NCBI GenBank assembly: GCA_945860265.1
Contig: CAMAQF010000010.1
Coordinates: forward strand, 1-64,000
DNA length: 64,000 nucleotides
Reading direction: 5' to 3'
Source: Emticicia agri
GTDB taxonomy: Bacteria > Bacteroidota > Bacteroidia > Cytophagales > Spirosomataceae
The stretch's first letter is position 1, and the number at the start of each line of letters is the position of its first letter. The notes beneath the pieces were generated by a model. It was given only the letters and a program-made list of their open reading frames with translations, was not told where the DNA came from and ran no database searches. Made by a program: the position numbers and the translations under genes. Of the stretch, positions 41,750 through 55,126 are shown one piece after another.

Positions 41750-43099
41750 TTAAGCCCCTTTAGGAGTTTGTTGTCTCTTAAACTTCAACTCACAAACATT
41801 CTTACCAATACGTTTACCATTTTTTAAACCTTGTTCGTTGGAATTTCTATAGTGTATACCACCATAAAGACGAGAATTGGCCGCTTCATCGGCAAACTCA
41901 AAAAATGAGTCGAACGTGCGAGGTTTAAAGCCTTTGGCAGCGTGAGAATTATCAGTGAAGTGATAATTAAAGCCAAACAAATCAGATAATACTTGTGCAG
42001 TTGCACCTGATACTGAAGCGTGGCCTGAAGTATATTCAGGAAAAGGAGGTGTGTCGAGCAATGGACTCCATGCACGGTCGATAGTTGTGCGTATGTAAGA
42101 AACAGGACGTAAAATGTTGTGCATAAATTTGCATTTCCAACATGAAATAAAAGCATCAGCTGAGGCAATACCAATTTTACAGTACGCTTCAGCAGCTTTA
42201 TCCAATTTTAATTTTTCGATTGTCATTACCTGCGAGGCAATCGAAACGGCATGTCCTGGTGGGGTAAAAGTCTTTCCAGCATCATCTGACCAAAATTTAG
42301 CTATTGTAGTCTGTTCGGCTGATAAGTTTTTGCCTATGCTATAAACTTCTAAGGCTTGGGAATACAAAAGCGATGAAATACCAGCATCACAACGTGGTGG
42401 AATAGGCAACTCAAAATCAGCATCTCCTTTAACAAATGTGCGATTCTTACCCCAACTAGGCTGCAAAGGTATTTGTTGTTCGCCCGTGGGAGTCCAAACA
42501 CACGCTCCAGTTACTGGCTTATAATCTTTAGGAAAATTTTTTTCATATCCTTCGTGTCCGCCATCATTTTTTGAATAATCAAATACTGCTTTGGCAACGG
42601 CTTCACCATATTTTATTGAGCGGAAAACAGTTTCTCTATCGACCTCATTTTGATACTTTCGTTCAAAAACACCTTTTAACGAGTCAATTTTTATAAAACT
42701 GACTTTTGCTGTATTGGCATAAAGGCTCTTGATGATAGCAGCTTGGGCAGCATTGGCACTCAAAATCCAATGGTAGGCTTTTCCACTTTCGATTCTGGGA
42801 ACTGACTTAAATTCATTAAGAATTCCAACAAGTGATTGATACTCTGGCATTCCGTTGACCAACGATTCGTAAAGTGTAAGACCGGAATAACCCAATGCTC
42901 TTGAAACTACCGGGGGCGAAAAACCAGGGGTTTTCGGAATCAATCCTAATTGTAGATTAAACCATGCCACCGCCATTTCATTTGAGTACTCTTTGACAAG
43001 TTTTTGTGAGAAGGATGCTTCAATCATAAACATAACAAAACTAAAAACCAATATGGCTTTTTTTCTTTGTATGTTTGATATATTTTGTTGTATAAGCAT
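41750..43099 (-). CDS. Exported vanadium-haloperoxidase/PAP2-type protein
   Basis: A 449-residue exported protein with a signal peptide ending ASFSQ. The acid-phosphatase/haloperoxidase motifs are KFMHNILRP (K-x6-RP), EYTSGHASVSG (a TSGH version of PSGH) and SRLYGGIHYRNS (SR-x5-H). The aspartate expected four residues after that histidine is a serine. Vanadium haloperoxidases and PAP2 phosphatases share this site, so it could oxidise halides or hydrolyse phosphoesters. An ATG at 43099 is used. A decayed paralog lies directly upstream (43318-44692) and a third, more distant relative at 49773-51320. Confidence 0.82.
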   Translation of the reverse strand: MLIQQNISNIQRKKAILVFSFVMFMIEASFSQKLVKEYSNEMAVAWFNLQLGLIPKTPGFSPPVVSRALGYSGLTLYESLVNGMPEYQSLVGILNEFKSVPRIESGKAYHWILSANAAQAAIIKSLYANTAKVSFIKIDSLKGVFERKYQNEVDRETVFRSIKYGEAVAKAVFDYSKNDGGHEGYEKNFPKDYKPVTGACVWTPTGEQQIPLQPSWGKNRTFVKGDADFELPIPPRCDAGISSLLYSQALEVYSIGKNLSAEQTTIAKFWSDDAGKTFTPPGHAVSIASQVMTIEKLKLDKAAEAYCKIGIASADAFISCWKCKFMHNILRPVSYIRTTIDRAWSPLLDTPPFPEYTSGHASVSGATAQVLSDLFGFNYHFTDNSHAAKGFKPRTFDSFFEFADEAANSRLYGGIHYRNSNEQGLKNGKRIGKNVCELKFKRQQTPKGA

Positions 43100-43317
43100 A
43101 ATCAAGTTTACGAATTGATTTATAAAACATAAAATTATTGACTATTAAAGCATAATCACCGATAGTACTCATAAAAACGCTTACAAGAATATTGGCAGAG
43201 CATAAACAAAAATAAATTATTTAATCATCGTTTAAAAAATCTATATACGTCTGAAAGGCGTTGGTCTTCAGTCGAAAGATAAAGCGTTTTTTTAGACTCG
43301 AGACTATTGAAAGTGCA

Positions 43318-44692
43318 CTATTTTGTAAATTTAAGCTTCATAATATTCTTAGCAATTTCCTTGCCATTTTTAGGCCATTTTCATTTCCTTGTCGGCAATG
43401 TATTTCTTTCGTAAAGGCGAGAAATTGATGTCTCGTTGTCATTTTTATAAAACGACTTGAAAGTTCTGTCTGGAAATACACCTGTGTGCGTTTTGTCGAT
43501 AAATGCGTAATTATCGCCAAAGATTATTTTGAGTGTTGCAGAAGCCGCACCCGAACCCAATGAATGCCCAGAAGTATATTCAGAAAATGGTTGAGTTGCA
43601 ACTAACGGCAACCAAGTTGGACTATTAGATTGACGAATATAAGTAATTGGACGCATCAGATTATAAGTGTATTTACCTTTCCAACAAACCACAAATGCAT
43701 TATTTAAAGCCATTCCTACTTTTGCATAAACTTCTGCCACTCTTTCAAGTTTGACTTTCTCTTTTTTCAAAACGATATTAGCAATATTAAAATGATGCCC
43801 TGGGGCGTGTAATGGTACTTCCGCCATCAGACCAAAAGTTAACTATTGCTTTCTGTTCAGTTGTTAATGTCTTACCAATATCAAATACATCTTTAGCCAG
43901 TTTAAACATTTCAGAAGTTTCTTTGAATGAAAAAGCAGTTGGAGCAGTCGGATTAACTGTTAAATTCAATCAAGAAAAGGTGCGATTTTTACCTCAAAAT
44001 GGCAATAATGGTATCTTTTGTTTAGCACTTGTTGATTCCCAAAAACTAATACCGACTGGCACTTTAAAGTCAGTTGGGAAGTTATTAGTTCAACCTTGAT
44101 GCCCACCATCTGTTTCTGAATACTCCAAATTAGCTTTGCCAATTTCTGCCCCAAAAGTATTTTAACGGTCGGTAACTAATTGATTATCAATAGATATAAA
44201 AATTTCACTTTCAATATTACGATACGACGAATTAATGGCACGTTTATTGGCATAATTTGTGCTATTTTACATTTCGGTAATAAAAGTATTAAGAGTTTCA
44301 TTGTCAACTAAACTCCAGTTATACTATTTGGTTAGGTCAGTTTTTGGCAATGAGATTAATCCGTTTACTTGACCAACCAATGATTGATTATTAGGCATTC
44401 CATAACCCAAACTTTCATACAATGCAAGGCTTGTATAACCTAAAGTACTAGCTACAACTGGCAGTGCATAACCAGGTGTTGATTTAATTAGTTGCAGTTG
44501 CAAATCCGTCCATCGAGTAGCAAGATTGGCTTTAAATTCGCTTGTTGCTTTTGAAAGAATGATTGGAGTTGGCTCTTCGGTAGATTTGTCTTTACAGGAA
44601 GTGAACAAAACAGCAGCTAAAACTACGAAAGTCATTAATCTCAAAAATGTATAGAGTTTCTTGTAAAAGATAGATATAGAACATTCATTCAT
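43318..44692 (-). pseudogene. Haloperoxidase/PAP2-type lipoprotein gene, decayed paralog of 41750-43099
   Basis: Pieces in successive frames follow the paralog along its whole length. The N-terminus has a lipoprotein signal (AAVLFTSCKDKSTEEP) and TRWTDLQLQLIKSTPGYALP (44692-44324). The middle reads IGKANLEYSETDGGHQG, then a stop, then TNNFPTDFKVPVGISFWES. Then come KYTYNLMRPITYIRQSNSPT and FSEYTSGHSLGSGAASATLK (43827-43381). The end, after a further frame shift, is LKNGKEIAKNIMKLKFTK with a stop at 43318. Several stops and frameshifts are present, one between SRLYER and the expected histidine, so no functional enzyme is possible. Confidence 0.85.
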
Positions 44693-44895
44693 GCATAAAA
44701 ACAATTAAATTGTCAATTTCTTTAGATTTCTCAACATAAAATGTTTTAACAATTATCTTGCCAAAAATAACGTTATTCCACAAATAGAAACACCTTTTAA
44801 TAGAATAATTATAAGTCATTTAAAAAAACAGAAACTACTATAAAGTAATTTAAACAAAAAGCATGCTAAGCTAAATTAAGCTTTTTTAAGGTATT

Positions 44896-45381
44896 TTAAT
44901 TGATTTGCTTAAACTCTCCAGATTGATGTCTTTTTGCCATTTCTACGTAGTGAGCGGCACTCAATAGTAGCTTTTCGGCATAGTCAGAAGGCAATTGTTT
45001 CACAACCTTTGCTGGTACTCCCAAAACCATCGAATAGTCGGGAATCTCCATGCCTTCGGTTACTAAAGCACATGCACCAATAATACAATGTTTACCAATT
45101 TTTGCTCGATTAAGAATAGTAGAACGCATACCGATGAGCGTACCATCGCCTATGGTTGCTCCATGAACGATTGCTCCATGACCAACCGTTACATCATCAC
45201 CAATCATGGTTGGTTCACCAAAATCGGCATGAAGAATTGCTCCATCTTGGATGTTGGTGCGTTTCCCAATAATAATTTCTTCGACATCGGCACGAATAAC
45301 GGCCGAATACCAGACAGATGAGTCTTCGCCAAGCGATACTTTGCCGACTACAGTGGCATTTTGTGCAATAAAATTAGGCAT
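44896..45381 (-). CDS. Gamma-class carbonic anhydrase-like hexapeptide-repeat protein
   Basis: A 161-residue left-handed beta-helix protein of the YrdA/gamma-carbonic anhydrase group. Zinc-ligand histidines are in AILHADFGEP and VTVGHGAIVHGATIGDGT. Hexapeptide repeats (V-G-K-V-S-L, I-G-D-D-V-T, I-G-D-G-T-L) run through the middle and a C-terminal helix AEKLLLSAAHYVEMAKRH follows. The ATG at 45381 (MPNFIAQNATVVG) is used; a longer frame opens only with a TTG at 45441 and would lie inside a different coding sequence. The N-terminal 15-20 residues usual in the family are missing. Activity as a carbonic anhydrase is not certain. Confidence 0.82.
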   Translation of the reverse strand: MPNFIAQNATVVGKVSLGEDSSVWYSAVIRADVEEIIIGKRTNIQDGAILHADFGEPTMIGDDVTVGHGAIVHGATIGDGTLIGMRSTILNRAKIGKHCIIGACALVTEGMEIPDYSMVLGVPAKVVKQLPSDYAEKLLLSAAHYVEMAKRHQSGEFKQIN

Positions 45382-45502
45382 AGGCCAAAGGCATTGGTTC
45401 TTCGAGGGACTTATCTTTGCAAGAATGAACCAAAACAACAAGAAAAATTGATAAACTAAAAAGACGAAATTTCACCTTCAGATTCCTTATTAAAGATTCC
45501 AT
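45374..45502 (-). pseudogene. N-terminal remnant of a haloperoxidase-type lipoprotein fused against the carbonic anhydrase gene
   Basis: A 42-codon frame from an ATG at 45502 reads as a lipoprotein signal FRLFSLSIFLVVLVHSCKDK followed by SLEEPMPLAYA and a stop. The CKDKSLEEPMP stretch matches the CKDKSTEEPTP start of the pseudogene at 43318-44692. The rest of that protein is absent: the frame instead runs into the first codons of the carbonic anhydrase gene, overlapping it by 8 bp. It may still drive translation of that gene. Confidence 0.65.
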
Positions 45503-45523
45503 TTATATTAAAGATTCCATTTA
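45488..45523. repeat. 18-bp perfect tandem duplication at the remnant start codon
   Basis: TATTAAAGATTCCATTTA occurs at 45488-45505 and again at 45506-45523 without change. On the minus strand each copy carries an ATG; the outer copy runs into a stop after five codons, the inner one opens the 45502-45374 frame. Confidence 0.85.
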
Positions 45524-45708
45524 TTAATTGATTAATTTAAAATTTAAATATGCAACATCAATTTTCCTATTAATATGAGACATAGTCAATGATAACAAAC
45601 AAATACAATCATTTGTCAAAAAAATTCATAAATCTCCCTTTTAAGAAATCGCTTAATTAATTTAACCGATTTTTTATGTTTTTACAGCAATCTTTATGCC
45701 ACAAATAT

Positions 45709-47886
45709 TTAAAAACGAGTGGAAATTGTGAGGGTAAATCCACGGCCATCAGATGCCCAAATTCCGGGGCCAGGATAGAACTGTGGACGCTTCGTAAAGT
45801 ACTGTTTGTTAGTGGCATTATTAAGGTTGAATTTGAGTAAAATTTTGCTCGAAATTCGGTAAGTAGCATTAACATCTAAAATTCCGTAGGATGGCACAAG
45901 TCCAACACTCCCATTGATAGATGCTTGCACGGTATTGAGGGCATCGGCATAGCTTTTGGCAGTATAACTAAATAAACTCGTTACGCTTAATTTTCGATAA
46001 CGGAAAGTTAGACCATTGCGACTAATAAACTGTGGGGTGCTTTCTACAAAATTTCCTTTGATGCTGACATTTTTTTCGCCAGAAAGAATTTCAGCTTCTA
46101 AATATTTGGCCTCCATCAATGAATTTGAGGAGAAAACTGAAAAATTAGCTATATCATTGATTCTTATATAATATTCGGTAAACATTTCAAGTCCTTTTGT
46201 GAACGAATCTCCGATGTTGGTTCGAAAAATTTGAAATGCACCATTCTCGTCGGTTTGTGCCAAAGTCCCAAGGCGGTTTTTGTAAAGCAATTGAAAATAC
46301 GTCATTTCAACGCGTAAATTTTCAAAGTTTGATTTATATCCGACCTCAAAATTATAGCCATTGGCATCCTTAAGATTATCAGAAGATTTTTCGTAAATAG
46401 ACGCAGGAATAATATCTTTAAAAATCACCGGACGATATGCTTGTGAGAAGCCAGCATAAAAATTTTGCTTAAGAGTAAGCTGATAATCAGCATTTAAGCC
46501 AAACAATGGAAAACGGTGCGGGATAGCATGAGGGAATTTTGAAGCATCATAATAACTAATCATGCCCGACATAATCGACTCGCCCGATTCGATTCTAAAA
46601 CCCGGTGAAACTGCCATTTTTTGCGTGAGATAAATACGATTTTCTACAAAAATGGCAATATTCTGTGTTTTGAAATGCAAATCACGGCCCCAACTTCCTA
46701 CGATACGCATATCAAAATCGTTACCCGTTGAGCCTTTTCCTTGTTGGCGGCGGTGCATATTATTGTTCATCAGTTGCACACCTCCTACTAAAATAGAAGG
46801 CAGTTTTCCAACTCGGTATTCGTGTAAAACACGTAACTCAGAAGTATAACTGTGGTAGTTATCAATATCCACTTGGCGGTTAGTGTATTGCAGCGTAATG
46901 GGATCGATTTTATCAACAACATCTGCATTTTTGTCAAACATTACGCTGTTTCGGCTTCCCAAAATGGCCGATGTAACCCACGAAAGTTTCGTACGATTGC
47001 CCACAGACCAATTAAAAGAAACCGATGGCACATAAATATCAGGACTATAAAAATTTCTCGAACGAATTGATGCCCTCGGATTTGCAGCAAACATGGCATC
47101 GGTTTGCTGACCTGCTAACTGAAAAACGTATTTTGAGTGAGACAAATCGGCTTTTATCGAAAGATTTTGGGTAGGACGATAAGTAACTTGTGCCGAAAAA
47201 GCATCGTAATCGCTGCCGCTATTATCACGGTAGCCATCCGAAACTCGCTTGCAGTAATAAGCATAATAATTCATATTACCGACTTGTCCGCCAACAGCAT
47301 TATAGGTACTCAATAAACCAAATGAACCTATGCTATTGGTACTTTCAAAGTCAAAAACCTTGGTCGAATCACCTTGTTTTGCTACATAATTGAGCATTCC
47401 GCCAAATTGTGAGCCGTATTGTAGTGAACCAGTTCCACGCACCAATTCTATATTCTGGATGGCTTCTAATGGCATCGAATAGTGGCTGGCAGGATAGCCA
47501 TATATATCAGAATTGGTCACAACACCATCTTTACGGATATTAAATTCCCAACCACGGTGCGGGTCAAGTCCACGAGTTGAGACATTTATCTGATTGCCCG
47601 ATCCGTCCATGTCATAAACAAAAACGCCTGGTACTTTAGCAAAAATTTGTCGAGGAGTTTTCTCGGCAATATTGGCATCTAAGCCTGCTACATTTATAAG
47701 TTCAGTCTTTTTTCCAACATAAAGAAATGTTCCTTTGGTGGCAGGAAGACTTTGAATATTAAACTTAAATTGTTGTTCTTTTACTTGTACTTCTTGCAGA
47801 TTCACCACTTTCACCGAATCTGTTTTTTGTTGAGCAAATAAGCCCAAAGGCAATAAAAACCATATAATATATCTAAATTTTTGCAT
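45709..47886 (-). CDS. TonB-dependent outer-membrane receptor, FecA-like
   Basis: A 725-residue receptor with signal peptide MQKFRYIIWFLLPLGLFAQQ. The ATG at 47886 follows a GGGAG-like stretch and is preferred over a frame extension to 47946. The plug (about 60-200) shows TPRQIFAKVPGVFVYDMDGS, GLDPHRGWEFNIRKDG and IQNIELVRGTGSLQYGSQFG. The barrel follows and ends with aromatic GRGFTLTISTRF. It resembles ferric dicitrate (FecA) receptors; it would import a chelated metal or small ligand using TonB energy. No FecR/FecI regulators are next to it. It belongs to the minus-strand barrel and haloperoxidase cluster. Confidence 0.88.
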   Translation of the reverse strand: MQKFRYIIWFLLPLGLFAQQKTDSVKVVNLQEVQVKEQQFKFNIQSLPATKGTFLYVGKKTELINVAGLDANIAEKTPRQIFAKVPGVFVYDMDGSGNQINVSTRGLDPHRGWEFNIRKDGVVTNSDIYGYPASHYSMPLEAIQNIELVRGTGSLQYGSQFGGMLNYVAKQGDSTKVFDFESTNSIGSFGLLSTYNAVGGQVGNMNYYAYYCKRVSDGYRDNSGSDYDAFSAQVTYRPTQNLSIKADLSHSKYVFQLAGQQTDAMFAANPRASIRSRNFYSPDIYVPSVSFNWSVGNRTKLSWVTSAILGSRNSVMFDKNADVVDKIDPITLQYTNRQVDIDNYHSYTSELRVLHEYRVGKLPSILVGGVQLMNNNMHRRQQGKGSTGNDFDMRIVGSWGRDLHFKTQNIAIFVENRIYLTQKMAVSPGFRIESGESIMSGMISYYDASKFPHAIPHRFPLFGLNADYQLTLKQNFYAGFSQAYRPVIFKDIIPASIYEKSSDNLKDANGYNFEVGYKSNFENLRVEMTYFQLLYKNRLGTLAQTDENGAFQIFRTNIGDSFTKGLEMFTEYYIRINDIANFSVFSSNSLMEAKYLEAEILSGEKNVSIKGNFVESTPQFISRNGLTFRYRKLSVTSLFSYTAKSYADALNTVQASINGSVGLVPSYGILDVNATYRISSKILLKFNLNNATNKQYFTKRPQFYPGPGIWASDGRGFTLTISTRF

Positions 47887-47965
47887 AATTCTCTCCCTTT
47901 GAATTCCATAGTAAAAAATAGCAATTACCTTCAAAAGGCTTGCCAATTAATTTAAAAACTGTGTT

Positions 47966-48487
47966 TTAGGCTATCGAATAAATGGGCGGCGGAGCATCAA
48001 CCGTTAAAGAAAAATTATAGTAGAAAGTGTTGATGAAATAATTAAGAAAAGGCAAATCTTCAACCTTATACCAAACCAACATTCTAGAGCGGAATTCGAC
48101 ATAATCTTTGGTAAGATGCTTAGAAAACTCTAATGCTTTTTGGCTGGTCGTTTTATGTTTTTCTGAGAAAAGATTCAGATTTTCGTGAACTTCGTTCAAC
48201 AAAGACATGATGTTATCTCGGCTTATATCAAGTCTTTTGTAGTAAGTGTAGAGCGTATCACCACGATAAACTTGCTCGTAAGATTTGAAGAATTCACCTT
48301 CAAAAATCGCATTGTTGCCATCAATGAGTTCGTTTTTCCATTCTGATTGATAGGGCAACGACAATTGCATTTTAAATACCAGTTTATCGCCTTTAAGCTC
48401 TACAAAACCTGTATCTTTTACAACATTACTTTCCTGCCATTCATTTAACAAAAAAATGAATGTAAAGCTCAGTGCATTGCAAACCAA
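47966..48487 (-). CDS. Small membrane-anchored or exported protein, function unknown
   Basis: A protein of about 173 residues or slightly more, placed 79 bp before the receptor gene. The N-terminus is hydrophobic (LSFTFIFLL), and in the same frame upstream DNA encodes KFLKKLVSIVLLSLLVC, a signal-like stretch. No ATG is available there; the nearest candidates are TTG at 48487 or an ATA at 48530-48532, so the true start is uncertain. The C-terminus is VDAPPPIYSIA. Proteins of this kind often precede TonB-dependent receptors in this phylum, but I do not recognise a named family. Confidence 0.6.
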   Translation of the reverse strand: MVCNALSFTFIFLLNEWQESNVVKDTGFVELKGDKLVFKMQLSLPYQSEWKNELIDGNNAIFEGEFFKSYEQVYRGDTLYTYYKRLDISRDNIMSLLNEVHENLNLFSEKHKTTSQKALEFSKHLTKDYVEFRSRMLVWYKVEDLPFLNYFINTFYYNFSLTVDAPPPIYSIA

Positions 48488-48658
48488 CAGGCTGAGAAGT
48501 ACTATAGAGACCAGTTTTTTCAGAAATTTTATCGAAGATTACTTTACAAAACTAATATAATTATATTGGTCTTGTAGATTTATAACGAAGAATGCGATAA
48601 AAACACAGAATATTTATGATTTTTATCACATTCTTTATCAAAAACTTTTGATTATAAC

Positions 48659-49705
48659 TTAGAAACGGTAAGCATACGTTGCTGATAAAAAATAATCCGC
48701 AAAAGCAGCATCACCTTCTTTGAAACCTGTTACTGTCCAAGTTGGTATTCTATCTCTAACTAAGGCAAAAGGCATAGCCAACATAAACGAACTTTTATGA
48801 CCGCTCCAAATAATGCCTGGCTCTACCGAAAAAATGTATCCTGGACGACGACCACCCAAACTTCCACCGATGGCATCAACGGCTGGTAAACCTTCCAAAC
48901 GTCCGCCCAAACTGATAGCAATATTCTTTTTCGGAAAAATTGCATAAGTCATTCCGACTCTTGCACCAAATTGGTCAGGTACTGAAAAACCGGTCGCTTT
49001 ATTTAATTCTTTCGGGCTAAATAAATAAAATCCATTGAAGTACACAGTCGCTTTTTTAAACGCTGATAAATAGCCTTGAATTTCTATACTTTCGCCCCAA
49101 CCGCTATCGCCCAACTGAATTGATTGGTCAACGGCTTTTACCTGAATATACTCTTTCTTGTCTTTATCAATTTTATGAAATTCATCTTGCACATTAGCAT
49201 TGCCCGTTGGAGCTTTTATTCCTGCACCAATAGCAATATTTCCCTTAGGTGCTGTGTTAGGATTTATCAGCCAATAAGATGCTGATAAACGCATATCGCC
49301 CATTCCTTGCGACTGCGTATGGAAACGAGGATTTGAACCCGCTGGTGTACCATTGCCATAATGCTCATAAAGTGAAGAACGGTCATTGTAAGAAAGTGGC
49401 ACATTAAGCGTAAAACTCAAACGATTGCTAGCGGCATAAGTAAGGCCAAAATCAAAATTATAAGAATCATTGATAACTTCTGTTTTTTGCTCAACACGCT
49501 GAGGTTGTTCTACTTTTCCAACAAAATGTTTGTAAGAATGTAACTTTCTGAAATTAGTTGAAATCTGAAAATCACCAGCGTGCATAAACGCCGAACCGCT
49601 CGGGTTTCCGTTGGCGGTAGCCATTGAGCGAACCGCAATACAACCTTGAGCAAAAGCCCCTATTGAAGCTGAAACAATTGCCAGAGAAAGTAAAAGTTTT
49701 TTCAT
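48659..49705 (-). CDS. Outer-membrane beta-barrel protein (transporter/MetA-pathway phenol-degradation-like)
   Basis: A 348-residue protein with signal peptide ending SIGAFAQ. Alternating strand patterns run through the whole length (FDFGLTYAASNRLSFTLNVP, MGDMRLSASYWLINP, GNIAIGAGIKAPTGNAN) and it ends with FLSATYAYRF, an aromatic barrel end. It resembles porin-like barrels often labelled transporter. The substrate is not known. It lies 67 bp downstream of the haloperoxidase-type lipoprotein gene on the same strand, likely co-transcribed. Confidence 0.75.
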   Translation of the reverse strand: MKKLLLSLAIVSASIGAFAQGCIAVRSMATANGNPSGSAFMHAGDFQISTNFRKLHSYKHFVGKVEQPQRVEQKTEVINDSYNFDFGLTYAASNRLSFTLNVPLSYNDRSSLYEHYGNGTPAGSNPRFHTQSQGMGDMRLSASYWLINPNTAPKGNIAIGAGIKAPTGNANVQDEFHKIDKDKKEYIQVKAVDQSIQLGDSGWGESIEIQGYLSAFKKATVYFNGFYLFSPKELNKATGFSVPDQFGARVGMTYAIFPKKNIAISLGGRLEGLPAVDAIGGSLGGRRPGYIFSVEPGIIWSGHKSSFMLAMPFALVRDRIPTWTVTGFKEGDAAFADYFLSATYAYRF

Positions 49706-49772
49706 TTGTAAAATTGATTATTGTTTTTAATATTTGTTTTCGAATAATACTCTTAATAGTTTCCCTTTGGGT

Positions 49773-51320
49773 TTAGGGGTTTGAACCATCGGCTTTGCCC
49801 CTTGCAATTGCAAATTCGCCGATTTTTGTACCATGTACCAAGCCTAATTCGCAATCTTTTCTGAAATGAATCAAGCCATAAACCCTTGAATCAGAGGCTT
49901 CTTTGGCCTTATAATTCATTTCGGTTGCTTTTGATGGAAAAATTGAACCTAAAACTGTAGCTGCTGCTGCCGAAAACGTAGAGTGCCCAGAAGTGTAAGA
50001 AGGGAAGTTTGGCAAGCCTACCGAAGTTTTTAAACCAAACTGTTGTGGACGTGGTGTATAGTAGTAATATTTCGTATCCCAACAAGCAATACCTGCGTCC
50101 ATTAAAGCTGTACTTACCAATGCCATCGCACGGGCAGTAGCAACTTCACTAAACTTATAATCGTGGCACAGATTAGCCGCTTCTCTGCTCCAATGGCCCG
50201 GCGGAGTATAACTTCCTGCACCATCAGCCCAATAATTAGCAATACGTGCTTGCTCACGGGTTTGAGATTTATTGATTTTCTCCAGCTCTTCATACTCTTT
50301 TTGCCATTCGGCAGAACCTACCACATACGGCATTTTTGGGCGAATACTTTCAAGCATTTTTTTATCAAAATTCCATGTTGTAACTGCTCCGTAATTTGGC
50401 AAAGTTGGTGGACGTACTGGAGCTTCTTGGCTTACCCAAACATCTTTTATGCCGCGGCCTTTAGCAGCTTCAATTTGACCGTCTACGAGTGTTTGATTAT
50501 TGGCTGCACTCATACCATCTACTTTTGCCTTCGCCATTACTTTTGCACCAACGGCTTTTCCGAGTGCATCACCAGCACTAATATCGCTCGGCACATTTAT
50601 TCCTGCCCAAACTCTTGCATTTTTTGCTTCGGCCAATTTAGCATTCAAATATGGCACTTCTCCCGGAAACATTGCAACCAAAATGGTATAAGAAGCGGCG
50701 GCTACAACAGCATCCTCTGATGGATAAGATGGTAAATCAGAAACTGGCAAAAATGCTGAGATTGTAGCATCATTTTTAGATGGTGCTTTGCGATTGTACT
50801 TGAATTTGTAGTTCCAAGTACTCACAAGAGCATCGTACTGTGCAACGCTTAAATAAGCCAAAGCACGGGCAGTGTAGGGTGGATTTGCAAACGGGAACCT
50901 TGGGTCGGCTAGAGGATTAGATGCATCTGGAACTGGGTATTTACCTTCGGCGTTTGATGCTGGCGGAACATTGTAACGTGCTGCCAATTCACGGGCAATT
51001 TCGTTCCAACGATACACTGCTCCTGCTCCCCAATAGGCAATGGCATCTTTGTTTGTAGGAGTAAGCACTGGAAGGATTTTGTTTTTTAATGAATCCAACT
51101 CTTTTAAATAAGAGGCATCTGAACTAGCTTTTGGTGCTGCTACTGCTACTTCACTCGAGGAAGTCAGAATAAATGGCTTCCAATTACCAGCATTTTCGTC
51201 TAATTTAGTCGGAATATAAGCTTCTTTTATTGGCTCTGTTACGGTCTTGTCGCAAGAAAGCAAAAGCCCTCCAATTCCCAAAGTGAGGGTAATTATGAGA
51301 TATTTAAGTATATTTATCAT
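49773..51320 (-). CDS. Vanadium-haloperoxidase/PAP2-type lipoprotein
   Basis: A 515-residue lipoprotein (signal ending LLLSC, C23). All parts of the phosphatase/haloperoxidase site are present: KYYYYTPRP (K-x6-RP), SYTSGHSTFSAAA, and SRVYGLIHFRKD (SR-x5-H-x3-D), unlike the protein at 41750, which lacks the last aspartate. The long helical middle is typical for bacterial haloperoxidase-like proteins. It should be on the periplasmic side or the surface, acting on vanadate-bound peroxide and halide or on phosphoesters. It lies between two barrel genes, with gaps of 59 and 67 bp. Confidence 0.85.
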   Translation of the reverse strand: MINILKYLIITLTLGIGGLLLSCDKTVTEPIKEAYIPTKLDENAGNWKPFILTSSSEVAVAAPKASSDASYLKELDSLKNKILPVLTPTNKDAIAYWGAGAVYRWNEIARELAARYNVPPASNAEGKYPVPDASNPLADPRFPFANPPYTARALAYLSVAQYDALVSTWNYKFKYNRKAPSKNDATISAFLPVSDLPSYPSEDAVVAAASYTILVAMFPGEVPYLNAKLAEAKNARVWAGINVPSDISAGDALGKAVGAKVMAKAKVDGMSAANNQTLVDGQIEAAKGRGIKDVWVSQEAPVRPPTLPNYGAVTTWNFDKKMLESIRPKMPYVVGSAEWQKEYEELEKINKSQTREQARIANYWADGAGSYTPPGHWSREAANLCHDYKFSEVATARAMALVSTALMDAGIACWDTKYYYYTPRPQQFGLKTSVGLPNFPSYTSGHSTFSAAAATVLGSIFPSKATEMNYKAKEASDSRVYGLIHFRKDCELGLVHGTKIGEFAIARGKADGSNP

Positions 51321-51379
51321 TGTTTTTGAACCCCTACCATTAAAGAGAAATATATTTTGATTGGCGAAAGCATTTTAAA

Positions 51380-52297
51380 TTATTTCTTTTCCTCTTTCTT
51401 AAAATAATTCAACTGATACAATAAACCCACCGAAAAGCTCATTGATTGACCAACATTTAGTCCATCAACTACTTTTGCCACTCTTACATTAAAACCAATA
51501 TTTTGAGGTTGATATTTTCCGTAGAAACCTACGCTCGAAGAAGTCATGTTATTGGTCGGAAAAGGCATATCATTACGGCGGATGTTATCGCCACCGACAC
51601 AGGTAAAATGCTCGGCAAAAAATTCAGCCTGAATTCGACCACCATGTTTAATATAACCTAATCTTGCAGCAACATCGTTAGCATTTGGCACACTTACTTC
51701 GTTGGTATTATAGACTCTGCTGTCGGCTTGATAAGCGTCACGGTCAACTTTTATCTTACTTCTTAAAATATAGCTTTCATGTGCAGTAAGATAAACACCC
51801 GATTTGTGCGTGTAGTTAGCAATCAATCGGACAGTAGCAGTTTTAGTTTGTAAACCAATTGACATTGGCAAAAAATCTGGCACGTAATTGCCAACAGGAA
51901 TAGATCCGCCAATTACTCCATGCAATGAAATCCCTTTATCATTTTTGACCAACTGATACTTCAACCAGCCTGATAGGTCTTGGATACCCTTCTGCCCCAT
52001 CAGATTTCCTGCACTGGCTTTTGTGCTTACATAAGGCACACCAACAATGACATTTAACTTATCAGAAATACCGACAGCAACCATTGGCATTACACTCTGA
52101 GTTGTATGTGTACCGATATTAAGGTTTTCACGCATGAGAGAATTTTCCCAGTATTCTTTCCAGCTACTATTGATGTAAGACGCCGCTATACAAGCAGTTC
52201 TTTTAGGCATATAAATAACATCGTGCGGCATTTGAGCATAAACACTTGATGTTAAGCACGCCAAGCATATAAAAGCGTACTTAACTAATGATTTCAT
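51380..52297 (-). CDS. Exported outer-membrane beta-barrel protein, first gene of the cluster
   Basis: A 305-residue protein with signal peptide MKSLVKYAFICLACLTSSVY AQ-type; the ATG at 52297 is preferred over an upstream start at 52333. The mature part shows amphipathic strands (VMPMVAVGISDKLNVIVGVP, ISLHGVIGGSIPVGNYVPDF, TATVRLIANYTHKSGVYLT) and a C-terminal barrel end SFSVGLLYQLNYF. Its strand layout resembles the barrel at 48659. Substrate unknown. It heads the minus-strand run; a perfect dyad lies about 120 bp upstream of its start. Confidence 0.7.
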   Translation of the reverse strand: MKSLVKYAFICLACLTSSVYAQMPHDVIYMPKRTACIAASYINSSWKEYWENSLMRENLNIGTHTTQSVMPMVAVGISDKLNVIVGVPYVSTKASAGNLMGQKGIQDLSGWLKYQLVKNDKGISLHGVIGGSIPVGNYVPDFLPMSIGLQTKTATVRLIANYTHKSGVYLTAHESYILRSKIKVDRDAYQADSRVYNTNEVSVPNANDVAARLGYIKHGGRIQAEFFAEHFTCVGGDNIRRNDMPFPTNNMTSSSVGFYGKYQPQNIGFNVRVAKVVDGLNVGQSMSFSVGLLYQLNYFKKEEKK

Positions 52298-52786: not shown

Positions 52787-53146
52787 ATGGAAGAACTAAC
52801 AAAAACCGAGGAACGCATCATGCAAATTATCTGGGATTTAGACCGATGTTTGGTGCGAGACATCATCGAAAAAATGCCCGATCACCCAAAGCCACCCTAT
52901 AATACGATTTCGTCCGTAGTGAGGCTGTTGGAAAGCAAGGGATTTCTAAGCTATAAGGCTTACGGAAAAACCTATGAGTATTTTCCTATAATATCAAAAG
53001 AAGAATATGGACAACGAAGTTTCAGAAAAGTATTTGCCAATTATTTCGATAATTCGGTAGAAAACCTGCTCTCTTTTATGGCAAAAGAAGAAAATTTGAC
53101 AGAAGAGGAGATTGAAAAACTAAAAAGTTTGATAAACAGTCGCTAA
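52787..53146 (+). CDS. BlaI/MecI/CopY-family transcriptional repressor
   Basis: A 119-residue winged-helix repressor: LTKTEERIMQIIWDLDRCLV then YNTISSVVRLLESKGFLSYK as recognition helix and wing (VRLLESKGFL then YKAYGKTYEYFPI). The C-terminal helices form the dimer region and contain the segment usually cut by the partner protease. The next gene, 12 bp downstream, encodes that M56 protease-like sensor. It probably represses the pair through the dyad at 52744-52761. Confidence 0.92.
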   Translation: MEELTKTEERIMQIIWDLDRCLVRDIIEKMPDHPKPPYNTISSVVRLLESKGFLSYKAYGKTYEYFPIISKEEYGQRSFRKVFANYFDNSVENLLSFMAKEENLTEEEIEKLKSLINSR

Positions 53147-53158
53147 ATAATTTACCAC

Positions 53159-55126
53159 ATGGAATATCTTCTCAAATCTACCATTTGCTTAACGGCTCTT
53201 TATGGACTGTACTTCTTCGGGTTTCGCCGAATGAGTTTTCATGCCCTTAATCGCTTTTATTTGCTTTTTTCGTTGGTATTGAGCCTCACAATTCCGCTCC
53301 TAAGCTATGAGCGGACAGAAGTAGTTGTGCTTGAGCCTCAAGCGATTGAGGAAGTAAACATTCCAGTTGAAGAAATACACAAAAGTGCTGTTAATCAATC
53401 AACTGAAATTCAGCCAACAAAAGGCATTGAGGGAATTACTGTTAAAACTATTGATTGGATACAGATATTAAATGCTATCTATTTACTAGGCGTTGGAGTG
53501 ATGATTTTTGTTTTTACAAAGAATCTTCTTATAATTCTTTACACAATTAAAAAAGCATGGACTTCGGTAACTTTGACATATTCTACGGAGGATGAGCGGA
53601 GCCGAAGCCACAGTAGTATTAACCGAAAATTGAAGATTTTACTTACAAAAAGTCAAAGTGATTCGTCGTTTTTTAATTATGTTTTCCTAAATCCCGACAA
53701 TCTAAATCCACACGAAGAAGCATTGATTATTGCCCACGAGGGTTTTCACGCACAACGCTTACACACGCTCGATTTGCTTATTTTAGGTGTCTTGAAAGCT
53801 GTATTTTGGTTCAATCCTATTGTTTATTTCTATCAAAAATCTCTGAAACAAATCCACGAATACGAGGTGGATGCCCTCATGTCAGCCACTTATGATGGTC
53901 GAGAATATGCATATTTATTATTGAAGCTCGGCGTTGCTCCAAATGCCATGATTATCAAACAGTTCAGTACAAAACCGCTATCAGAACGATTTCAATTTTT
54001 ATTCAAAACACCAACAAAAAACATGAAAAAGCTATTGTATTTTTTATCATTACCGATTATCGCAGTTGGAGTTATGGCATTTGCTGAGGAGAGGGTGAAG
54101 ATGGTTTATCAGGGGAAAAAATCTCCAAAGTCGATTTTGAAAAAAGAACAAAAGGCTAATTTGCAGTCAGTAATAACAGTTGATACAACTACAAAAAAGA
54201 AAATCATATCAACTGATATTTTTACTCATAAAATAGATTTTAATCTAAATTTTGGCCGAATCGATAGCGTTACTATCTATGCTAACAATAAACCATTAAT
54301 CGAAGGACAAGATTATATTATTAAAGAAAAACACGCCTATTTAGACCAAAAATACGAGAAATCGAAAGTTGGTATTAGAATAGTTGTAGCCAACATTGGT
54401 GGGCCTGGAAGCTATTACTTATACCCAAATCTTACGAAATTAGAAGAAAACACATATCCAATTTTCAATAAGATAAAAGCTATGACAATTTTTACGGCGA
54501 ATCAAAGGAATACTATTGCTCAATTTAAATCAAAACTACCAAAACTACCTACCCCATTTTCAAAAGTTGCTAAAAATCAAGACACCCTACGCACAATTTT
54601 AGAAGCCAATAAACTTGGGAAAAATCCATTAGTTTTTATTAATGGAGATGAATATCCGTCGAGTATTTTGTATCGTATAAATCCATATAGTATGAAAGGT
54701 TCCGAAATATATTCAAAGGGAAGTCAGCGTGCAATTGAGAAATACGGCTTACGTGCCGAAGATGGTGTTATTATTTTAAACACTACCAAAAACAAAGAAT
54801 TACTATTAGGGAATGAAAAACAATATAGAATAGCTGTTGATAACGTAAAAAAACAATTAGATGCACCTAAAAAACGAGTACAAAGAGTGGTTCTAAAAGA
54901 TTCCGATGGTAAAGAATACGAAAAAGTTTCGGTCATGAGGCCAGACCTCTTAACTATTCATTTTTCTGTTGATGTTCCAATAGGTGGAAAAATCATTTTC
55001 ACCGTTGATGGCAAGGCAGTTAATGAAGAAGATATTGAAAATACAAAACAAATATATATTGGTGGCGGATGTGGCCAAACACATGGCGAGAAGTATGATG
55101 CCTATATTGATTTAAACACTAAATGA
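53159..55126 (+). CDS. BlaR1-type M56 membrane metallopeptidase sensor with plug-like tail
   Basis: A 655-residue protein. Membrane helices at about 2-20, 33-48, 105-128 and near 290 flank the M56 zinc protease domain, with IAHEGFHAQRLHTLDLL (HExxH: H193-H197) and the downstream glutamate region EYEVDALMS. The large extracytoplasmic C-terminal part (about 310-655) contains LGKNPLVFINGDEYPSSILY and KYGLRAEDGVIILNTTKNKE, which resemble TonB-receptor plug segments. It should sense an envelope signal and cut the BlaI-type repressor. The ligand is unlikely to be beta-lactam by sequence alone, since no penicillin-binding motif SxxK/KTG was seen. Confidence 0.85.
   Translation: MEYLLKSTICLTALYGLYFFGFRRMSFHALNRFYLLFSLVLSLTIPLLSYERTEVVVLEPQAIEEVNIPVEEIHKSAVNQSTEIQPTKGIEGITVKTIDWIQILNAIYLLGVGVMIFVFTKNLLIILYTIKKAWTSVTLTYSTEDERSRSHSSINRKLKILLTKSQSDSSFFNYVFLNPDNLNPHEEALIIAHEGFHAQRLHTLDLLILGVLKAVFWFNPIVYFYQKSLKQIHEYEVDALMSATYDGREYAYLLLKLGVAPNAMIIKQFSTKPLSERFQFLFKTPTKNMKKLLYFLSLPIIAVGVMAFAEERVKMVYQGKKSPKSILKKEQKANLQSVITVDTTTKKKIISTDIFTHKIDFNLNFGRIDSVTIYANNKPLIEGQDYIIKEKHAYLDQKYEKSKVGIRIVVANIGGPGSYYLYPNLTKLEENTYPIFNKIKAMTIFTANQRNTIAQFKSKLPKLPTPFSKVAKNQDTLRTILEANKLGKNPLVFINGDEYPSSILYRINPYSMKGSEIYSKGSQRAIEKYGLRAEDGVIILNTTKNKELLLGNEKQYRIAVDNVKKQLDAPKKRVQRVVLKDSDGKEYEKVSVMRPDLLTIHFSVDVPIGGKIIFTVDGKAVNEEDIENTKQIYIGGGCGQTHGEKYDAYIDLNTK

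Follow-up and report, generated by a model that had tools for sequence, protein, structure and literature searches.

The minus-strand genes that lie side by side on a contig of Emticicia agri (Spirosomataceae), coding for haloperoxidase-type proteins, two outer-membrane barrels and a TonB-dependent receptor, raise the question of whether they make up one envelope system. The window, that is, the whole stretch of DNA analysed, comprises 64,000 nucleotides (assembly GCA_945860265.1, contig CAMAQF010000010.1, positions 1-64,000 of the forward strand), and the genes concerned are listed in Table 1. Open reading frames and Pfam matches bore out the six intact genes named in a sequence-only reading of this DNA, mostly with the coordinates given there, and the short gaps described for the first part of the locus were found as 59 and 67 bases between barrel1, the lipoprotein and barrel2. 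The same reading was incomplete in that it missed the carbonic-anhydrase-like gene between the TonB receptor and the decayed haloperoxidase (NF050158 159 bits versus a cut-off of 250), and it split the decayed gene in two: haloperoxidase decay was correctly recognised, but what was listed as a remnant (44324-44704) and as a pseudogene (43381-43969) belongs to a single gene: open copies in loci L036-L040 align with 44692-43321 as two stretches that follow one another, at 59-76% identity. Six in-frame stops fall in the first stretch, and the frame changes near 43800. The small exported protein exists as described, but its conserved N-terminal helix begins upstream of the listed open reading frame, and the start is probably the CTG at 48523. 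In the ORF list barrel1 starts with the ATG at 52297 and extends to 52333 if a TTG start is used. Promoter-like sites numbered 50, where shuffled sequence had a mean of 40.5 (sd 6.2), and terminator-like sites 8, where it had 10.1 (sd 3.4), counts that say little either way.

Table 1. Genes of the haloperoxidase-barrel locus, with positions in the window
Feature	Coordinates	Strand	Description
barrel1	51380..52297	-	12-stranded outer-membrane beta-barrel, fold predicted to be of COG4313/FapF type; fixed partner of PAP2lip, encoded directly upstream
PAP2lip	49773..51320	-	lipoprotein, predicted two-bundle vanadium-haloperoxidase fold, vanadate/phosphate site motifs complete
barrel2	48659..49705	-	second outer-membrane barrel, weakly Phenol_MetA_deg/FapF-like; distant relative of barrel1
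Small exported protein	47966..48523	-	N-terminal helix, C-terminal PP(P) motif; CTG start probable
TonB-dependent receptor, siderophore/FecA-like	45709..47886	-	Pfam plug and barrel, TIGR01783 (below cut-off)
Gamma-carbonic-anhydrase/PaaY-like hexapeptide protein	44896..45441	-	NF050158 (below cut-off); neighbour retained within the genus
Single decayed haloperoxidase gene	43321..44692	-	matches open copies in L036-L040
VHPO3, intact second haloperoxidase-type protein	41750..43105	-	motifs complete; tree group differs from that of PAP2lip

To see which of these genes stay together, we compared the locus with those of relatives at several depths. The lipoprotein PAP2lip was found in 18 of 198 genomes sampled across the phylum (its own genome included), and barrel1 lies directly upstream of it in all 18, which carry seven family labels; since this holds for every phylum-wide carrier, the adjacency exceeds chance. 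Within the family, 128 of 150 genomes gave a match at E 1e-20, a threshold that also admits other haloperoxidases (one of those in the own genome at 6.6e-22), although 126 of the 128 pass 1e-60, and in the 40 loci that we picked from them the pair is together in 40. Among 80 named loci the count is 78, the other two ending at contig ends, and second copies of the locus (L052, L053, L072 and L073) have retained the pair as well. The question of whether the five genes are scattered in relatives is thus answered differently for different members, barrel1 and the lipoprotein never being found apart while the wider set gives a mixed picture, and the envelope system proposed from sequence is better described as a two-gene core with a looser layer around it than as one fixed set of five. 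Two neighbouring genes kept together in many Bacteroidota hint at an undescribed envelope oxidation machine. The reading we prefer, with a probability of roughly 0.5, is that of a two-gene envelope unit composed of a lipoprotein with the vanadium-haloperoxidase fold and a barrel dedicated to it, including the oxidation chemistry, the docking and the joined uptake set. The lipoprotein would bind vanadate and, at the outer membrane, would oxidise either a halide or some small compound, perhaps a phenolic one, with hydrogen peroxide; it would dock on barrel1, which would serve as its anchor and may let small substrates or products through. On this reading, the small protein and the TonB receptor, with barrel2, are a set of their own, probably serving uptake, which has joined the core more than once, and other haloperoxidases and oxidant-type genes (AhpD-like, distantly RclC-like) collect around it in some genera.

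The structure model of barrel1 (pLDDT 87) has 12 strands in our reading of the DSSP assignment and an N-terminal segment before strand 1, which is the trait of COG4313/PF13557 channels as given in PMC4493636. The best Foldseek matches were FapF (5o67, E 7.7e-11) and a COG4313 channel (4rl8, E 1.0e-10, TM 0.71/0.80), the best rows having identities of 11-14%; among Pfam and NCBIfam models no family reached it convincingly, PF13557 and the TonB-receptor models giving no match. With regions assigned by us from the secondary structure, the mean majority frequency in barrel1 was 0.71 for predicted outer loops, 0.58 for strands and 0.51 for inner turns. These observations also bear on a different role for the barrel, namely that it mainly exports or anchors one lipoprotein and is no solute channel, with the haloperoxidase and fasciclin-domain lipoproteins as its clients. 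FapF, the structure of which is titled polypeptide transporter and amyloid secretion protein, is among its closest folds, the conserved part is the predicted outer loops, and distant relatives of barrel1 have a fasciclin-domain protein next to them in 4 of the 11 genomes examined. These four belong to two genera in two families; the fasciclin gene is co-directional with the barrel gene in L189 and L190 and divergent from it in L188 and L192. Such neighbours suggest that barrel1 may partner or anchor lipoproteins and not be the passage for a single substrate. However, no fasciclin gene is adjacent in the other seven genomes (G311, G237, G327, G169, G411, G522 and G555, the last three seen over only about 1.5 kb on each side), and COG4313 channels are linked with small hydrophobic molecules in PMC4493636. 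A dedicated exporter is also not required, since in Capnocytophaga a short signal is enough for lipoprotein export according to PMC5080379. We regard export or anchoring as the main role of barrel1 as somewhat unlikely.

It is doubtful, but conceivable, that both kinds of neighbour belong to a wider Bacteroidota envelope platform built on small 12-stranded barrels of non-TonB type, each dedicated to one lipoprotein. The client would be a haloperoxidase in one branch, while another branch would have fasciclin lipoproteins; the haloperoxidase branch would be an enzyme on a pore that makes, at the outer membrane, reactive halogen or small molecules in oxidised form. If it is true that such barrels pair with different lipoproteins, this would also bear on how Bacteroidota keep enzymes at the outer membrane. 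As to the side of the membrane, the strict surface-export signal of Capnocytophaga lipoproteins is C-X-K-(D/E)2, and those of other Bacteroidota differ from it, according to PMC5080379. PAP2lip, with CDKTVTEP, does not carry the strict signal, so that it is uncertain whether the protein sits on the outer face. Among the 94 aligned relatives with an N-terminus, Lys stands at +3 in 81, and 7 carry the strict signal, in which two of the residues from +4 to +6 are acidic; a cruder pattern, which chose the wrong cysteine in some rows, had given 6 of 76.

For the lipoprotein itself, the Pfam PAP2 match was clear (50.2 bits, E 2.8e-13), and the lipoprotein cysteine is Cys23, preceded by a hydrophobic segment. 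The predicted model (pLDDT 90.9) shows the two-helical-bundle fold that PMC4859513 gives as the criterion for vanadium haloperoxidases. Its residues 74-515 superpose on the Zobellia iodoperoxidase 4cit with Z 33.4 over 353 residues at 2.5 Å, and other bacterial and fungal haloperoxidases follow with about 350 residues aligned at Z 23.6-26.3. The closest structures include the homologue NapH3, whose reaction is a rearrangement. Acid phosphatases gave Z 16-17 with only about 190 residues aligned, and algal and cyanobacterial bromoperoxidases, at Z 14.8-17.4, were not above them. Entries missing from the Foldseek or VIA-align rows were given no evidential weight. The VCPO second-bundle model of Pfam, which models one branch and not the whole family, gave 22.9 bits, below its gathering score of 27. 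PAP2lip does not fit the class A acid phosphatases, which are a single bundle of about 230 residues: it has 515 residues, of which phosphatase chains cover about 190. The vanadate- or phosphate-binding site recognised from sequence (K-x6-RP, SGH, SR-x5-H) proved complete, with W414-x2-K417-x6-R424-P425, TSGH 443-446 and SR 478-479-x5-H485, and W-x2-K-x6-RP, SGH and SR-x5-H are all present in 95 of 95 aligned homologues, as is a Phe at H-7.

Such a site is common to acid phosphatases, and PAP2-type sites bind phosphate too, so the lipoprotein might instead be an envelope phosphatase acting on phosphate esters, with the barrels importing phosphate or the freed alcohol. A fungal vanadium chloroperoxidase is reported with phosphatase activity in PMC4859513, the undecaprenyl-diphosphatase and PhoC models of NCBIfam matched weakly (25 bits, far under the cut-offs), and rhizobial relatives carry the annotation 'phosphatase PAP2 family'. 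Against this, the fold has two bundles and haloperoxidases are its best structural matches, the motif is TSGH in 84 of the 95 homologues and PSGH in 2, and Trp stands at K-3 in 95 of 95, a position where PMC11871015 places the Trp of chlorinating fungal and Ascophyllum enzymes. No phosphate-uptake family was found among the 25 commonest of 82 families in a scan of neighbour proteins, which covered 94 of the 113 same-strand neighbours from 40 chosen loci and two DUF417-like proteins added by hand (from L040 and L181). The two bundles of the fold and the Trp at K-3 led us to rank the phosphatase function lower, and we hold it to be unlikely; fold and site, as modelled, favour oxidation over phosphatase action.

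Around the core, the oxidising unit that we prefer is accompanied by a more variable set of genes. Barrel2 was found in 29 of the 40 family genomes, inside the lipoprotein cluster in 26 of the 29; it is distantly related to barrel1 by hhalign (probability 88, E 3.4e-6, 137 columns), and against PF13557 it scored 18.8 bits, short of the gathering score of 22. The TonB receptor exceeded the Pfam cut-offs for both barrel (91.1 bits) and plug (40.2 bits), and stayed under those of TIGR01783 (118.1 bits versus 223.5) and of the NCBIfam FecA equivalog (79.9 bits versus 1100). In the 16 receptor loci (12 far from PAP2lip, 2 beside barrel2 and 2 of the 17 near ones), the small protein, for which 19 members scanned gave no convincing Pfam family, lies directly upstream of the receptor, or of barrel2 plus receptor, in 11. 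Small protein and receptor are a second recurring pair, and barrel2 and other haloperoxidases are recruited often, not always. The carbonic-anhydrase-like gene was present in 6 of the 40 family loci and in L210, and in L181, a genome from a different family, the full set of six gene types is found.

The position of the receptor could also mean that it imports chelated vanadium (or iron) with which the haloperoxidases are loaded, making the locus a metal-supply and enzyme cassette. In 17 of 31 matches, the distance between a receptor orthologue (at least 47% identity) and the lipoprotein, as read by us from the match coordinates, is within 18 kb; in 4 of the 16 receptor loci (L204, L206, L210 and L211) the receptor has a haloperoxidase gene next to it or close by, and on an Adhaeribacter plasmid the TonB receptor is two genes from the haloperoxidase. 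However, the remaining 14 of the 31 were matched elsewhere, in part on separate contigs where the genome is fragmented, and only 12 of the 40 fetched family stretches contain the receptor. A metal-supply role is very unlikely in our view. That the neighbourhood is mere inherited synteny of kindred species with no common function is disfavoured as highly improbable: the sampled carriers are all Bacteroidota and whole blocks are shared within genera, but barrel1 stays by the lipoprotein over seven family labels while other neighbours change, clusters outside the module each occur in at most 10 of the 40 family loci except DUF3179 (14), and second copies retain the pair.

Among the 96 neighbour proteins scanned, 17 were CMD/AhpD-like, one of them with 76.6 bits against 'peroxidase-related enzyme', just below the cut-off of 81.8. 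The RclC-like neighbours stood under the NCBIfam RclC equivalog cut-off (28.7 and 22 bits versus 275); DUF417 was over its cut-off in L040 (30.0 versus 27) and under it in L181 (24.7), and the two DUF417 matches of the scan, possibly just the proteins added by hand, are uninformative on frequency. CMD, MFS and DUF3179 form one adjacent block in several genera, maybe a separate operon.

In SusC/SusD systems an outer-membrane barrel is encoded with a lipoprotein alongside, and in neisserial Slam a barrel adjoins its client lipoprotein. The likeness of the present pair to the former is an idea only, barrel1 being 12-stranded and unmatched by TonB-receptor models and PAP2lip being of haloperoxidase type, not SusD; that to the latter concerns gene arrangement and serves as a lead. 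The Zobellia galactanivorans iodoperoxidase (4cit/4usz) has the same two-bundle fold as PAP2lip and agrees with it in the site motifs, W-x2-K and the Phe before TSGH among them, but identity is 23% over 353 residues, the match begins at model residue 74, and PAP2lip differs in being a lipoprotein whose barrel partner is fixed. COG4313/SphA-type channels (4rl8) and FapF (5o65, 5o67, 5o68) likewise resemble barrel1 in strand number and N-terminal segment, whereas barrel1 has no convincing family, low identity to them and a fixed pairing with a haloperoxidase-type lipoprotein. No description of such a pair was found among the matches listed from CC-licensed PMC papers on haloperoxidases and COG4313, and novelty here means no earlier description in the literature searched. 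To our knowledge, what haloperoxidase-type proteins do in bacterial physiology is largely open beyond biosynthesis and seaweed-associated bacteria, and a barrel partner fixed in all 18 phylum-wide carriers sampled offers a direct genetic handle on the role of the enzyme. Plasmid relatives amounted to 39 PLSDB records in all, and the four viewed from outside Bacteroidota (Phyllobacterium, Rhizobium, Priestia and Stanieria) showed no outer-membrane barrel adjoining the haloperoxidase-type gene in the PLSDB gene table, which is incomplete. VHPO3 has complete site motifs and scored 19.5 bits against Pfam PAP2, under the cut-off of 27.2. In the tree, the PAP2lip rows fall on one side of a branch with 92/90 support, which is below the level starred by the tool, the long Stanieria row being unsure.

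The results showed that the gene of the PAP2/vanadium-haloperoxidase-type lipoprotein (PAP2lip) and the adjacent outer-membrane barrel gene (barrel1) form a genuine envelope unit of two genes, which is conserved and falls within a known enzyme superfamily; none of the papers listed in our literature searches described it. A PAP2lip match was found in 128 of 150 family genomes at E 1e-20 (126 of these at 1e-60), and in all 40 family loci that we chose among the 128 genomes barrel1 lay directly upstream on the same strand. For the 80 named loci, barrel1 was found upstream in 77 by ORF and in L118 by tblastn, and the remaining L133 and L147 start at a contig end; the ORF-to-ORF gap had a median of 18 bases and a range of -83 to 90 (n = 77 loci). 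Of 198 genomes drawn across the phylum, among them the genome of the window itself, 18 had PAP2lip and 26 had a barrel1 match, and all 18 carriers, distributed over seven family labels (f1, f2, f4, f5, f7, f21, f23), had barrel1 directly upstream of PAP2lip. Second copies in L052, L053, L072 and L073 were paired again. Shared descent of the whole region does not account for this pairing, since the genes surrounding the pair differ in other lineages.

Genes of the minus-strand locus, with the basis of assignment or a remark
Feature	Coordinates	Strand	Basis or remark
barrel1	51380-52297	-	ORF
PAP2lip	49773-51320	-	Pfam PAP2
barrel2 (second barrel)	48659-49705	-	ORF
TonB receptor	45709-47886	-	family searches
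VHPO3, intact haloperoxidase	41750-43105	-	ORF
gamma-carbonic-anhydrase/PaaY-like gene	44896-45441	-	between receptor and decayed haloperoxidase; missed by the sequence-only reading

The window belongs to a Cytophagales genome, and by PAP2lip its closest named relatives were a Cytophagaceae MAG (91%), Emticicia aquatilis (80%) and Lacihabitans (79%). The minus-strand barrel1, PAP2lip, barrel2, small exported protein, receptor and VHPO3 proposed by the sequence-only reading were all recovered by ORF and family searches, but the haloperoxidase remnant and pseudogene that it separated are a single decayed gene (43321-44692), which aligns from 44692 to 43321 with the open copies of close relatives L036-L040 in two consecutive stretches of 59-76% identity, and is broken by 6 in-frame stops and a single change of frame. 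The conserved helix of the small protein (LKKLVSIVLL...) starts 5' of the first ATG, GTG or TTG codon, at a CTG at 48523 (minus strand). This CTG is probably the start codon, because CTG-AAA-AAA at the helix start is common to the window and L035, L036, L037 and L038, and an in-frame stop lies one codon 5' of it in L037 and L038. Upstream of barrel1, divergently oriented, lie two genes (52787-55126) judged by eye to be BlaI-type repressor-like and BlaR-type membrane protein-like, which are placed likewise in L035 and L036 and farther off in L037 and L038, with no match in the other 36 family loci.

PAP2lip scored 50.2 bits for Pfam PAP2 and 22.9 bits for the Pfam VCPO second bundle, under the cut-off of 27, and its best solved relative by sequence was the Zobellia vanadium iodoperoxidase (E 3.6e-12). 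An AlphaFold2 model built from 21 sequences (pLDDT 90.9) matched 4cit at Z 33.4 (353 residues, 2.5 A, residues 74-515), in comparison to 23.6-26.3 for other bacterial and fungal superfamily members including NapH3, 16-17 for acid phosphatases (about 190 residues aligned), and 14.8-17.4 for algal and cyanobacterial bromoperoxidases. Among 95 homologues (80 from the named loci and 15 distant), W-x2-K-x6-RP, SGH and SR-x5-H, as well as a Phe seven residues before the histidine, were found in all, and the TSGH form in 84. A Trp at this place, three positions ahead of the active lysine, also occurs in the chlorinating fungal and Ascophyllum enzymes, although halide choice is, according to the authors who describe it there, not traceable to that single position (PMC11871015). 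In the tree, a branch (92/90) separated the PAP2lip proteins, whose neighbours were two rhizobial PAP2 proteins, from the VHPO3 type. The window protein has a clear lipoprotein cysteine (LLLSC), which was also present in all 94 relatives with the N-terminus inside the locus, of which 81 have Lys at +3; the strict export signal of Capnocytophaga surface lipoproteins (PMC5080379) was found in 7 of the 94 and is absent from the window protein (CDKTVTEP).

No convincing family was found for barrel1 in Pfam or NCBIfam. Its model (24 sequences, pLDDT 87), in which we read 12 strands from the secondary structure, matched FapF (E 7.7e-11) and 4rl8 (E 1.0e-10, TM 0.71/0.80), a COG4313 channel; COG4313 channels have been linked to the uptake of hydrophobic molecules (PMC4493636). 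With both termini taken as periplasmic, the mean majority frequency was 0.71 for outer loops in comparison to 0.58 for strands and 0.51 for inner turns, which points to an unvarying partner or ligand on the outside. Barrel2 was a distant relative of barrel1 (probability 88).

The most likely reading, to which we give a probability of about 0.5, is that PAP2lip and barrel1 are a predicted envelope haloperoxidase with its dedicated barrel. Alternatively, barrel1 may have a pure anchoring or export role, as a partner of the lipoprotein instead of a substrate channel. This alternative was kept because fasciclin-domain genes adjoin distant barrel1 relatives. In eight of the 198 genomes from across the phylum, all barrel1 matches were weak (E 4e-11 to 2e-29); when one of these barrels was used to search 295 genomes of the class, 7 were found to have a match, and three of the 7 were new. 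In 4 of these 11 genomes, which represent two genera in two families, the barrel gene has a fasciclin-domain gene beside it. The two are co-directional in L189 and L190 (Pfam Fasciclin) and divergent, at about 50% identity, in L188 and L192, and the fasciclin-domain proteins of L189, L190 and L188 (the latter seen as L216) show a lipoprotein-type cysteine. The stretch seen around the barrel in the other 7 genomes held no such gene, nor did the 135 PAP2lip loci searched, some genomes being counted twice. L186 has a VHPO3-type gene on the strand opposite the barrel gene and a few genes from it. As a further alternative, PAP2lip may have phosphatase activity.

The other genes form a looser layer around the predicted haloperoxidase and its barrel. 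Clustering of the 40 family loci placed the small protein in 31, barrel2 in 25, DUF3179 in 14 and the receptor in 12. In 40 loci picked to be diverse, the same-strand run that surrounds PAP2lip without a break included barrel1 in 40, the small protein in 22, barrel2 in 16, a VHPO3-type gene in 7 and the receptor in 6. Genome-wide, barrel2 was found in 29 of the 40 genomes, inside the PAP2lip cluster in 26; of the remaining three genomes, G014 and G019 have it next to the small protein and receptor. Barrel2 is dispensable, since the closest relative (locus L035, genome G074) keeps the rest of the order and has no barrel2 match genome-wide. For the receptor, 17 of 31 matches of at least 47% identity lay within 18 kb of PAP2lip, and some of the other 14 were on other contigs of fragmented genomes. 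The small protein and receptor form a second module, since in 11 of 16 fetched receptor loci (12 far from PAP2lip, two beside barrel2, two near) the small protein immediately precedes the receptor, or barrel2 and the receptor; a haloperoxidase gene was near the receptor in 4. L181, from another family of the class, has the small protein, VHPO3-type gene, barrel2, barrel1, PAP2lip and receptor (61% identity) on one strand.

Among 96 neighbour proteins scanned, CMD was the commonest family (17), followed by MFS (7), DUF3179 (6) and TonB receptors (5). One CMD protein narrowly missed 'peroxidase-related enzyme' (76.6 bits, cut-off 81.8), and one MFS protein was nearest to aromatic-acid symporters, under cut-off. 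The receptor is flanked by DUF417/RclC-like small membrane proteins in L040 (6585-7031), L181 (13876-14355) and L209; where scanned, these fell far under the RclC cut-off, and they may be connected with reactive chlorine stress. The CMD, MFS and DUF417/RclC-like neighbours tilt the gene context towards oxidant or aromatic chemistry. A block of CMD/AhpD-like proteins with an MFS transporter recurs next to the pair in L083, L087, L092, L093, L141 and L152, with a SusC-type receptor in most of the six and DUF3179 in some; in L152 (Saprospiraceae) the order differs. On an Adhaeribacter swui plasmid (L195), a haloperoxidase, a small gene and a TonB receptor stand in a row, near PAP2 phosphatases, enolase and a fluoride exporter gene.
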